From Natrialba chahannaoensis JCM 10990 (GTDB lineage Archaea > Halobacteriota > Halobacteria > Halobacteriales > Natrialbaceae): a DNA stretch of 44,755 bases. The translations under genes and the position numbers were made by a program. Shown in pieces: positions 25,543 through 29,934 of the stretch (position 1 is its first letter; each line of letters opens with the position of its first letter). The stretch covers positions 66,840 to 111,594 of the forward strand of contig NZ_AOIN01000046.1 of assembly GCF_000337135.1 (NCBI RefSeq), read 5' to 3'. The notes under the pieces are model-generated. The model had not been told where the DNA came from. It was given only the letters and a program-made list of their open reading frames with translations, and did no database searches.

Positions 25543-27207
25543 ATGTCCAACGGGCCACAACTACCCGGCGTCGAAACCGAGGACACCGTAGACCGTATCG
25601 TCCTCCACGTCGACGCGGATTGCTTCTACGCCGCCTGCGAGCGACTCCGCGAGCCCGACCTCCGCGGCGACCCCGTCGTCGTCGGCATGGGCTACGAACC
25701 CGGCGACACCGTCGGTGCCGTCGCCACCGCCAGCTACGAAGCCCGCGAGTTCGGCGTCGAAAGCGCCCAGGCAATCTCGTCCGCACTCGAGTCCCTGCCG
25801 CGGCGCGCCGCCCTTTCACCAGACACAGAAGACCACGATCCGGACCTGACTGAGGACGAGACCGGCTACTACCGCCCTGTCGATATGGACTTCTACGAGT
25901 CCATCGCAGCTGAGGTTCGGGAAATCCTCCACGACTGCGCGGACATCGTCCGCGAGGTGAGCATCGACGAGGCCTACCTCGATGTGACCGAGCGCACTGC
26001 CTGGGAGGTCGCGGACGGCTTCGCTCGGCACGTCAAGGATCGAATTCGGCGCGAGGTCGGTGTCGTCGTCAGTATTGGCGTCGCGCCAACGATGAGCGCC
26101 GCGAAGATCGCGAGCGACTTCGACAAGCCGGACGGATTGACCGTCGTCGAACCCGGTGAGGTGCGGGAGTTTCTCGCCCCGCTCGACGTCGAGTTGCTCC
26201 ACGGCGTCGGTCCCGTGACGGCGCGCGAACTCCGAGAGATGGGACTCGAGACGGCCGCCGACGTGGCCGCGGCCGATCCTGATCCGTTGGTCGAGCGCTT
26301 CGGCGAGCGCGGTCAGGAACTCTACGATCGTGCCCGCGGCGAGGACGAGCGCCGCGTCGAACCGAAGGGTGACCCCAAGAGCTTTTCCCGCGAGTCGGCC
26401 TTCGCCGAGCCTGTTTCCGACCCGGAACCCAAATACGAGCAGATCGAGACCCTCGCGGCGGCCGTCGCCGACCGCGCCCAGCGCGAGGGTGCGCTGTACA
26501 GAACCGTGGGCGTCAAGGCCGTCCTGCCGCCGTTCGACGTTAACACCAGAGCCCGCTCGCTTCCCGGTCCGGTCGACGATCCTGACCTCGTCGAGCGGAT
26601 TACCCGCGACCTGTTCACCGAGTTCGAGACAGAGCCGGTTCGCAAGTTGGGTGTTCGCGTGGCCAATCTCGAGTTCGCGACGGCAGACCAGACGAGTCTG
26701 GACGGCTGGGACGGCGCAGCGACAGCGTCCAGTGGGCCTGACAAAGAGACAGCGGATGTGGGGAAAGAGTATGAGGAAAAAGGAGTACTCGGGTCCAATT
26801 CAGACCCAGACCCAGACCCAGATTCAGAACCAGAACCAGAGCCAGAACCAGAACCAGAGTCCGACACGTGGCCGGAGCCGGAGTCTAGCACTGATCCGGA
26901 ATCAGATTCCGAGACAGACGCCGTTGCCCTCTACGAGTTTGAAGCCGAGTCCGAACCCGAAACTGGATCCAACTCCGAAACCGAACCTGGTCCCGCTGTG
27001 AGTGCTACCGGACAGGAAACACTGACAGCGTTCACAGGCAGTCCCGAACACAATAGCGCCCCAAAAGACGCGACAACCACCGACGAGAGCGCATCCATCG
27101 AGAAGAGTGATGAAGTCAACGCTGAAACCACTCCGTCCGAAACTACGTCGGCTACAACAACTCCTCGGGTACCTGAGGGGCAAACGATACTAGCTGATTT
27201 CACGTAG
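25543..27207 (+). CDS. dinB: Y-family DNA polymerase (DinB/Pol IV) with acidic tail and two PIP motifs
   Basis: 554-residue translesion polymerase. The catalytic domain is complete: metal-binding Asp in LHVDADCFYAACERL, the AVATASYEAREFGV finger, and SIDEAYLDV with the second acidic pair; little-finger domain to about residue 395. Haloarchaeal DinB normally ends in a short tail with one PCNA-binding motif. Here residues about 400-554 form a long disordered tail containing a Pro-Asp/Pro-Glu repeat (PDPDPDSEPEPEPEPEPE) and two motifs of the Q-x-x-L-x-x-F kind: QETLTAF at 491-497 and QTILADF at 547-553, the latter one residue before the C terminus. The gene stands alone after tfs. Confidence 0.93.
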   Translation: MSNGPQLPGVETEDTVDRIVLHVDADCFYAACERLREPDLRGDPVVVGMGYEPGDTVGAVATASYEAREFGVESAQAISSALESLPRRAALSPDTEDHDPDLTEDETGYYRPVDMDFYESIAAEVREILHDCADIVREVSIDEAYLDVTERTAWEVADGFARHVKDRIRREVGVVVSIGVAPTMSAAKIASDFDKPDGLTVVEPGEVREFLAPLDVELLHGVGPVTARELREMGLETAADVAAADPDPLVERFGERGQELYDRARGEDERRVEPKGDPKSFSRESAFAEPVSDPEPKYEQIETLAAAVADRAQREGALYRTVGVKAVLPPFDVNTRARSLPGPVDDPDLVERITRDLFTEFETEPVRKLGVRVANLEFATADQTSLDGWDGAATASSGPDKETADVGKEYEEKGVLGSNSDPDPDPDSEPEPEPEPEPESDTWPEPESSTDPESDSETDAVALYEFEAESEPETGSNSETEPGPAVSATGQETLTAFTGSPEHNSAPKDATTTDESASIEKSDEVNAETTPSETTSATTTPRVPEGQTILADFT

Positions 27208-27364
27208 CTCCCGCAAAGCAGTGTCACCAGCTACCCGTCTCGGTCACTCGGAAACCCGCTGTTCTCGCGCCAACCGACGTTCCAACTTGCTGGAACGACG
27301 AGAACACTGATATTATAACAGTTCCCGCACAACAGCAGCGTAGACAGTACGCTCTCGATCGTCA

Positions 27365-29026
27365 ATGACTGAGGATTTCTACGACCTTCTCGAGCTTCCA
27401 TCCGACGCCTCCCAAGAGGAGATCAAAGATGCCTACCGCGAGAAGGTCCGCGTCTACCATCCAGATCTGAACGATGACGACCGCGCGCAAGCGCAGTTCG
27501 TCGCCGTCAAGAAAGCCTACGAAATCCTCAGCGAACCGGTCGAGCGCCAGGCCTACGACCGCCTCGGACACAAAGACTACGTCGCCAAACGGACCAGTGG
27601 CATTCCCGACCCCGAAGTCTGGGCGAGTTCGGACGACGACTCGAGTACGAGTTCAAGTTCAAGTTCACGTTCACGCTCCAGTTCCAGAACCAGTTCGGAC
27701 ACGGGTTCAAGCTCGAGTAGCAGACGAACAACGAAGACAAAGACAAAAACGACATCTGGGCGTTCTTCCACGTCGACGTCACGGTCAACGAGTAAGAGTA
27801 AAAGCGGTGAAAGCGGGCAGAGCAGTAGCAGCCGAAACCGAACGACACGCGGTTCGTCCAGCTCCAGCCGAAACTCCCGCACCCAGTCCCGTCCTACCTC
27901 TAGTACAGACGCTAGGGGTGGCTCTGGCTCCAGTCGGAACTCGAGTTCGTCGTCGAGTTCTCGTTCCCGGTCCCGTTCCAGCACCAGTTCGTCCGGTTCC
28001 CGTTCCAACCCCAGTTCGAGTTCGAGTAGCAAGTCGTCCAGTTCACGCCGCCGTTCGAGTGGGTCGTCGGGATCGAACTCGAGTTCGCGTTCGTCATCGG
28101 GTTCCCGTTCGAATTCGCGTTCGCGTTCCAAAACGAAGGCAGAGGCGGCGTCGGCCAGCACCTCGAGTGGAACAGCGACCAACCGGAACTCGAGAACACG
28201 CACGCAACAGGGATCGGGGGCAGCTACTGGTGGGCGAAAGAGCGGAACAGCGAACAACACTGGCACTGCCGACTCGAGTACAGCTGCCGGTTCTCACGCC
28301 GACACTGGCTCCGACACCGACGACTCGAACACCCGCTTTGCCTGGCTCCGAACCAACCCCGTCGTCCGCTGGTGGCGTCGCCAGCGTTTCGGACTCGCCT
28401 TGCTCTGGCTCTCGGTGCTCGTCTATCTCGCCGGTCTCGCCGACTTCGCGCTCGGCAACGAGACGGGACTCGAGTTACTTCGCACAGAACTGGCTGCCGT
28501 CGGAACCGATCCCGCCGCGATCTGGGGGGTACTCGAGAGCGGACGGTACGGCATCGACACCGGCGCGGTGTTCGTCCAGCGCTCGGAGATCGTACCGCCG
28601 CCGGTCGCGCCGATGGAGTGGTACGCTGCGCTGGGCGGGTTCGTCGCGCTCGTACTCGGTGCGATACTTGCCGTCCGACTCGGTTGGCGAGAAGAGCCCT
28701 GGCGGCCGCTCTCGATCGACGAGACGATCCTGCTCGCAATCGCGCTCGGGATTTCGACAACGCTGTTCGGCGGGCCGCTGCTCGCCGGTGCGGTGTTGAT
28801 GCCGTTCCTGTTTACCGTCATCCTCACGCACACGCGACGCGGGCCCGGCTGGACGCCGTCGTACGCGTACGTCCTCCCGGTATTGGCCCCGCTGTGTGGG
28901 TTTGCTGCCGGATCTGTAGGATACGCGACGCTACCGCTCGATCTGGTGTTGTTCGTCGTCCTGCCGCTGCTCGGGGCGCTCGGGCTCCCGTTGCGGGCGA
29001 CGATCAGAAAGTACCTCGGTCGGTGA
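27365..29026 (+). CDS. Membrane J-domain protein with long Ser/Arg-rich region
   Basis: 553-residue protein in three parts. Residues 1-70 are a canonical J domain (DFYDLLELPSDASQEEIKDAYR) with the HPD motif at 32-34, which stimulates Hsp70/DnaK ATPase. Residues about 91-300 are overwhelmingly Ser, Arg, Gly, Thr and Asn, with many SR/RS pairs (SRSRSSSRTS, SRSRSRSS, SRSRSKTK) and a net positive charge, very unlike the acidic proteins around it. Residues about 342-550 hold five or six membrane helices (FGLALLWLSVLVYLAGLADF and others). No Cys-rich zinc region or DnaJ C-terminal domain, so it is not a general chaperone; it likely recruits DnaK to the membrane. A TATA-like ATTATAAC lies about 50 bases upstream. 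Frame and codon bias are normal throughout, so the repeat region is translated. Confidence 0.9.
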   Translation: MTEDFYDLLELPSDASQEEIKDAYREKVRVYHPDLNDDDRAQAQFVAVKKAYEILSEPVERQAYDRLGHKDYVAKRTSGIPDPEVWASSDDDSSTSSSSSSRSRSSSRTSSDTGSSSSSRRTTKTKTKTTSGRSSTSTSRSTSKSKSGESGQSSSSRNRTTRGSSSSSRNSRTQSRPTSSTDARGGSGSSRNSSSSSSSRSRSRSSTSSSGSRSNPSSSSSSKSSSSRRRSSGSSGSNSSSRSSSGSRSNSRSRSKTKAEAASASTSSGTATNRNSRTRTQQGSGAATGGRKSGTANNTGTADSSTAAGSHADTGSDTDDSNTRFAWLRTNPVVRWWRRQRFGLALLWLSVLVYLAGLADFALGNETGLELLRTELAAVGTDPAAIWGVLESGRYGIDTGAVFVQRSEIVPPPVAPMEWYAALGGFVALVLGAILAVRLGWREEPWRPLSIDETILLAIALGISTTLFGGPLLAGAVLMPFLFTVILTHTRRGPGWTPSYAYVLPVLAPLCGFAAGSVGYATLPLDLVLFVVLPLLGALGLPLRATIRKYLGR

Positions 29027-29071: not shown

Positions 29072-29737
29072 CTACCCGATTCGCGTCGCCACGCCCTTCG
29101 TCTGCCGATAATCACTCGCCAGAATCCCACGTAGCGTCTCGAGAATCGCCTCGCGGTCGCCGTCATCCCACTCGGTTGGATTCCGAACCGGGACGACCAT
29201 GAACCCGCGGCCGCGGAGTTCCGTCGCGTGGAGGTCGGCCATGTCCAGATCGATCCGGCGACGCTGGGTTGTGTACTCCCGGAGGACGTGATCCGTCGCC
29301 TGCTCGCCGACCGGCAGCAGAATGTGCGCGTTGATCGCCCGGAGTTCGGCATCGAAGTAGCGCTCGAGTTCCGCGTACTCGCTCACGGTCGGCTGGTGGC
29401 CGTCCGGGAGACTACACATGTGAACGTAGCTCAGATAGCAGTTCTCGAGTACAGGTCGGTCACGGGGACCGCTCGCGAAGTCGATTCTGGGGCCGCGAAG
29501 AACGTCCTGAATCGCGTTCCCGTTCGCGGTTTCGGTGAAGGGCACACCGGTTCGCTTGCCGCCGTGGACGCCGGGGTGATCGCCGATGACGTGGAAGTCA
29601 GCGTTGGCGTCACCGTAGCCGAAGACGGCGGTCCGTTCGTCGGGGCCGCTCCGGTCGAACGGTGGTCTGAGTCCGAACGGGTTACTCGTCCTGTCGGTGA
29701 CGTTTTGCACGTTCGCCCGAAGGAGTGGCTGACCCAT
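29072..29737 (-). CDS. Uracil-DNA-glycosylase-superfamily protein
   Basis: 221-residue protein resembling the UDG fold. The first motif is FHVIGDHPGVHGGKRTGVPF (about 49-67; UDG motif A is usually GExPG), and LENCYLSYVHMCSLP follows. The last motif is VPVRNPTEWDDG, where true UDGs have a conserved His (HPS). So the leaving-group histidine appears replaced, and there are no Fe-S cysteines as in family 4. It may have altered activity or be a non-enzyme member. The start used is the Met of MGQPLLRAN. It lies downstream of a Bat-type regulator on the same strand with a gap of about 200 bases. Confidence 0.72.
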   Translation of the reverse strand: MGQPLLRANVQNVTDRTSNPFGLRPPFDRSGPDERTAVFGYGDANADFHVIGDHPGVHGGKRTGVPFTETANGNAIQDVLRGPRIDFASGPRDRPVLENCYLSYVHMCSLPDGHQPTVSEYAELERYFDAELRAINAHILLPVGEQATDHVLREYTTQRRRIDLDMADLHATELRGRGFMVVPVRNPTEWDDGDREAILETLRGILASDYRQTKGVATRIG

Positions 29738-29934
29738 AACGGCCGCGGTTGTGGCACATTGTGTCTGTGTGGTCAGTTGGGGCTGTCTCTCCACTAGCGT
29801 TGTTCGTGCAGTAGACTATTTGGTGCAATTGCTTCTCCCCTTTCGGATTCACCGCTGTGATCTCATTTTGACCAGTTTCACCTACTGAACGATGGGGTAT
29901 CGCTCGCTGTCTACTATCGGCCACGGTTCCGATC

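Follow-up and report, generated by a model that had tools for sequence, protein, structure and literature searches.

Class C J-proteins have the J domain as their sole shared part, their other domains being unrelated, and they are specialists, some of them bound at ribosomes or translocation pores (PMC13254874). In DNAJB6 and DNAJB8, low-complexity linkers of the G/F and S/T kinds follow the J domain (PMC12722041, PMC12126530) and are described as client-binding and self-assembling; in DNAJB6 the linker is rich in G/F and a large part of it is hydrophobic (PMC12722041). SR proteins are defined by features that include an N-terminal RRM domain (PMC9105085). A review of haloarchaeal stress proteins counts just the proteins whose genes are named dnaJ.

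The J-TM gene of Natrialba chahannaoensis JCM 10990 lies at 27365–29026 (+) of the window, the whole 44,755-nucleotide stretch of DNA that was analysed. Its open reading frame runs from an ATG at 27365 to a stop codon ending at 29026, is supported by a Pfam DnaJ match and by single-copy orthologues across Natrialbaceae, and encodes 553 aa arranged as a J domain, a post-J motif, a linker and a six-helix membrane domain. The J domain (aa 1–68, 27365–27568) matches Pfam DnaJ over aa 4–65 with 72.8 bits (cut-off 27.8, E 2.5e-20), and its HPD tripeptide (aa 32–34) is invariant among 29 orthologues. The adjoining motif HKDYVAKRTSGIPDPEVW (aa 69–86, 27569–27622) is conserved in 29 sequences, with H69, Y72, V73, K75, R76, T77, G79 and P81 invariant and W86 nearly so. 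It is modelled by AlphaFold2 as a helix (69–77) plus a short helix (83–86), and its YV and R76 are retained in distant family members.

DnaJ is the sole Pfam domain in the 553-aa protein, with no zinc finger or beta-sandwich substrate-binding domain found; the full-length DnaJ model gives 82 bits, far under its 377-bit cut-off, and G/F character was not seen in the linker composition. By its sequence the protein falls outside classes A and B, being without the G/F region, zinc finger and beta-sandwich domains, and fits the definition of class C, with the J domain alone in common with other J-proteins. The assembly has one DnaK gene, adjoined on the same contig by that of canonical DnaJ. Together with the invariant HPD, this single DnaK indirectly points to a putative role as an Hsp70 co-chaperone. 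The genome also encodes another J-TM protein, which is short, and gives a fourth J match, a weak one. This second J-TM protein (L002; G000 contig C59, 1489–2487 (+), 333 aa) resembles the main one in having an N-terminal J domain, a low-complexity middle with an SR-rich block and C-terminal hydrophobic stretches, but has a different membrane part and is without the YVAKR post-J motif. L002-like proteins of other genera have little SR block, and their linkers are more acidic or mixed.

The C-terminal domain (28388–29023) is predicted to be integral to the membrane by hydropathy, AlphaFold2 helices and loop charge bias. Helices are placed at aa 342–364, 416–441, 451–469, 471–492, 500–517 and 523–551 by AlphaFold2 and hydropathy, and the domain modelled alone forms six long hydrophobic helices (pLDDT 88.7, pTM 0.83). 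Basic residues are clustered ahead of helix 1, in the stretch that joins helices 4 and 5, and at the C-terminal end. The juxtamembrane segment with RWWRRQ (aa 323–341, 28331–28387) averages 4.4 K+R against 1.4 D+E in 28 orthologues, while acidic residues prevail in the long loop that follows helix 1 (means of 6.7 D+E and 2.1 K+R, 28 sequences). This charge bias fits a topology in which both ends of the membrane domain would be cytoplasmic. Pfam gave no match to the window's membrane domain even at E 1, Foldseek none at E <0.001, and the best VIA-align Z of 8.7, to designed helical bundles, is within that tool's common-arrangement range; since the domain has no family or fold match, its role could exceed anchoring. 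Members from families f7 and f10, outside Natrialbaceae (L105–L109, L111, L113, L114), show no match at profile positions from about 87 to 127–152. The unmatched stretch corresponds to helix 2 and part of helix 3, and the anchor may therefore have fewer helices there.

A membrane-domain profile search, with families counted from its results table, found one copy of the gene in 65/72 Natrialbaceae genomes; 12 sampled genomes from the order's other families gave weak matches. The named loci are all from Natrialbaceae genera, the closest being those of Natrialba sp. SSL1 and N. hulunbeirensis (93%). When 80 genomes of other families were searched with a J-domain profile, five genomes gave scores of 131.9–163.5 bits, well above the 106.6 bits and below for canonical DnaJ, and all five encode a J domain, a low-complexity linker and a hydrophobic tail. 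In distant members the J domain and a linker are retained and the post-J motif is largely intact. No viral copies were found. In Natrinema gelatinilyticum (L104, 5001–5297) a C-terminal remnant of the gene, its J-domain match gone, lies downstream of DinB and is likely a case of gene loss. Because of this broken copy and the absence of the gene from seven of the 72 Natrialbaceae genomes, all of which still have canonical DnaJ, the protein appears to be dispensable in some lineages. The searched open-access library held no description of the family, nor of haloarchaeal phosphosites on it; the family of class C membrane J-proteins is real and, going by that library, undescribed.

The first-pass annotation had described an HPD-containing J domain joined to membrane helices by a stretch rich in SR/RS pairs, basic in an acidic proteome and using varied Ser codons, and each of these features was recovered. 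The linker (aa 87–320, 27623–28324) is about 235 aa long and has 33 SR/RS pairs; its composition, taken over a first cut of aa 89–325, is about 42–43% Ser, 13.5% Thr, 13% Arg and 4% Lys, with 5% Asp+Glu and a net charge of +27. All six Ser codons are used, and aromatic or aliphatic residues other than Ala are nearly missing. The sampled proteome is acidic (17.5% D+E, 8.1% K+R, net charge per residue −0.09 at the median), a background taken from sampled stretches with a crude gene caller that let in some false frames and missed the J-TM gene. With AlphaFold2 on 27 full-length orthologues, aa 86–320 is the only stretch with pLDDT <50, and the linker is predicted to be disordered. Its SR/RS pairs exceed the expectation from composition barely and marginally, with 33 against 25.7 on shuffling (p 0.04) and against 28.7 on shuffling in blocks of 20 (p 0.16). 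The window holds a second Ser-rich linker, in an HVO_2718-like HTH regulator (172–762 (−)), where a poly-Ser segment of ~45 aa, mostly Ser/Gly/Thr, joins the N-terminal part to the HTH domain.

Across the family the linker persists and its Arg content does not. In 79 distinct proteins, gathered with membrane-domain or J-domain searches, which are biased towards intact members, the J domain, linker and membrane part are present in every case. The linkers are 57–284 aa long (median 127), with medians of 25% Ser, 6% Arg, 8% D+E and a net charge of −1; net charge ranges from −15 to +27, and most have 1–10% Arg and a charge from −15 to +5. At these loci the DinB tails have medians of 26% D+E and −11 net charge. 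Set against these tails and the proteome, the low acidic content makes low-acid richness in Ser/Thr/Gly/Ala, rather than SR content, the property that the family conserves. Strong Arg/SR enrichment is found in all seven true Natrialba species, and Natrialba swarupiae, which groups elsewhere, is without it (Ser 16%, net −10). Scored as a trait, an SR/RS density of >=0.07 per residue changes at least 10 times on a quick tree from which the linker was left out; the count is approximate, as 30 forks of this tree have weak support and it contains long branches. Summed over the 79 linkers, SR/RS pairs number 639 against 485 shuffled (1.32x) and against 519 when shuffled locally, which removes part of the excess. 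SR richness is thus an embellishment, arising in particular lineages, of the low-acid, Ser/Thr-rich tether that the family has in common.

From the computed domains, predicted disorder, conservation, orthology, compositional constraint and single DnaK gene, we infer a class C J-protein, anchored in the membrane, whose J domain would act on the one DnaK of the cell close to the membrane from the end of a long flexible tether; to this reading we give a probability of roughly 0.65. The six-helix C-terminal domain would lie in the cytoplasmic membrane, both ends facing the cell interior, and a long tether of disordered, low-acid Ser/Thr/Gly/Ala(/Arg) sequence would carry the N-terminal J domain into the cytosol. 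There the J domain could stimulate DnaK, which would thereby be loaded onto membrane-associated or emerging clients. The linker would serve as a spacer whose solubility in molar KCl does not depend on acidic residues, and perhaps also as a region that binds clients weakly. This tether grew longer and gained Ser and Arg in Natrialba and several further lineages, a change that may add a function such as weak contact with clients or the lipid surface.

It is possible, if unlikely, that the Ser/Thr-rich linker itself binds clients and self-assembles, concentrating them near the membrane for DnaK. The order of parts, a J domain followed by a long low-complexity S/T-rich region, is that of DNAJB6/DNAJB8, and composition is kept while sequence drifts; yet the linker's near lack of aromatic and non-Ala aliphatic residues sets it apart from that of DNAJB6, and its length differs five-fold among orthologues.

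We are comparably doubtful that the linker composition is a mutational by-product in which slippage adds Ser codons and the linker merely has to exist. Among four close Natrialba the J domain (98% amino-acid identity) and membrane domain (94%) align without gaps, against 73% identity and many gaps in the linker, a point in favour of slippage. The linker DNA also contains short local tandem repeats, of 6-, 18- and 27-bp units, and is for that reason not wholly free of repeat signal; the poly-Ser linker of the unrelated HTH gene is a further point in favour. The use of all six Ser codons argues the other way, as does the pattern of linker differences at codon positions 1, 2 and 3 (0.20, 0.16 and 0.29 in Natrialba subgroup A), in which second positions vary less than third. 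Between the two Natrialba subgroups, aligned linker identity falls to 37%, perhaps little above what aligning two Ser-rich strings yields, and third codon positions differ at 0.69, near saturation. Despite this, linker Ser stays at 28–45% and Arg at 10–13% in the seven Natrialba species. Family linkers are also low in acid while adjoining DinB tails are acidic. Because Ser and Arg persist at this identity and near-saturation, linker composition appears constrained while residue order drifts, with selection seemingly on protein composition, though slippage that continually remakes Ser codons could conceivably have the same effect. The first-pass annotation had argued for selection on the protein rather than on a DNA repeat; the composition kept under drift agrees with this, and the local repeats qualify it. 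Its suggested check, whether Ser/Arg content is kept as sequence drifts, comes out positive within the seven Natrialba species and negative for Arg across orthologues. It had also named the finding that would refute it, orthologues lacking the region or carrying an ordinary acidic linker, and neither was found: all 79 proteins have a linker that is low in D+E. A strain-specific repeat expansion is ruled out, as the linker occurs in every orthologue examined.

The neighbourhood offers a further candidate partner. DinB (DNA polymerase IV; 25543–27207 (+), Pfam IMS/IMS_C) lies upstream on the same strand in 39/40 named loci, L096 being the exception, and also precedes the gene in f3, f7 and f10 members. 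A convergent UDG-superfamily gene (29072–29794 (−), Pfam UDG) lies downstream of the J-TM gene; such a gene is present in 23/40 named loci and near several distant members. The J-protein could thus work with DinB (and UDG), steering DnaK to translesion-polymerase turnover or a DNA-damage response, and this arrangement, conserved as it is, is what speaks for such a role; we regard it as improbable, and adjacency to DinB does not by itself establish shared function. The most diverged members (f5, f14) have no DinB match in the stretch examined, and a membrane anchor would be odd in the partner of a DNA polymerase. The element GAGAACACTGATATTATAACAG (27300–27321 (+)), which occurs once in the window, is promoter-like, with a TATA-type A/T octamer 55 bp 5' of the ATG; most orthologues have an A/T octamer, commonly AAATTATA, about 50–60 bp 5' of the ATG, and the gap to the upstream gene has a median of 135 bp. 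Given this octamer and gap, the J-TM gene probably has its own promoter, which counts against the DinB partnership and also weakens a simple operon with DinB. The DinB tail (26720–27204 (+)) is a ~160-aa acidic, low-complexity segment that carries EP/DP repeats and has a PIP-like sequence at its C-terminal end (QTILADF); its length beyond the aligned core varies from 23 to 181 aa over 73 orthologous loci and is greatest in Natrialba. Electrostatic pairing of the basic linker with this acidic tail was rejected, as linker charge does not follow tail charge (rho −0.08, p 0.48, over 73 loci and by a statistic that ignores phylogeny), a result that likewise speaks against a DinB partnership.

The first-pass annotation had likened the linker to eukaryotic SR domains, a likeness that holds in limited measure. 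Pfam found no RRM in the protein, the genome has no clear SRPK-type kinase (two Pkinase matches are weak and below cut-off), whereas in SR proteins SRPK/CLK-type kinases phosphorylate Ser of the RS region, and SR content is not conserved. An RS domain was taken to span >=50 aa, to have an RS content of 40% and to contain RS/SR repeats in succession; S+R reaches 82% in the best 50-aa stretch of the linker, residues in SR/RS pairs make up 38%, and two close relatives reach 42–48%. The longest perfect SR alternation in the linker is seven residues. Binding of RNA or ribosomes by the SR-rich region, or its assembly into a membrane-located condensate under phospho-regulation, is very improbable, since its basic charge and SR/RS pairs in an acidic proteome, the repeated rise of SR enrichment on the tree and the family-wide pair excess are offset by Arg and positive charge that vary among orthologues, by the RRM and kinase results, by the part of the excess lost to local shuffling, and by a cytosol of molar KCl, in which electrostatic RNA binding should be weak. 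Equally remote is the bolder proposal of a convergent archaeal SR-like domain in the Natrialba-type linker, membrane-attached, serviced by DnaK and gathering RNA, ribosomes or clients in molar KCl.

The favoured reading, a tethered J domain acting on DnaK at the membrane, has wider implications. That a membrane J-protein is conserved next to a lone DnaK suggests that the Hsp70 system of haloarchaea may include a branch devoted to the membrane. The linkers, which range from mildly acidic to strongly basic, also provide a ready-made comparison of how disordered regions keep working in molar salt without acidic residues.

Among known systems, eukaryotic SR proteins and their RS domains share with this protein a disordered, Ser/Arg-rich segment with SR/RS pairs, but the J-TM protein has no RRM, a Ser:Arg ratio of about 3:1 and an SR content that varies among orthologues; by its sequence it would not be classed as an SR protein, and the analogy is limited. 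DNAJB6 and DNAJB8 resemble it in the long low-complexity S/T-rich linker behind the J domain; unlike them, it is without a G/F region and the DNAJB C-terminal domain, has few linker aromatics and is, by prediction, membrane-anchored. With class C and Sec63-like proteins it has in common a J domain shared with J-proteins and a membrane domain, and it differs from the Sec63 type in that its membrane domain is without a sequence or fold match and its J domain is N-terminal, on a very long tether predicted to be disordered.
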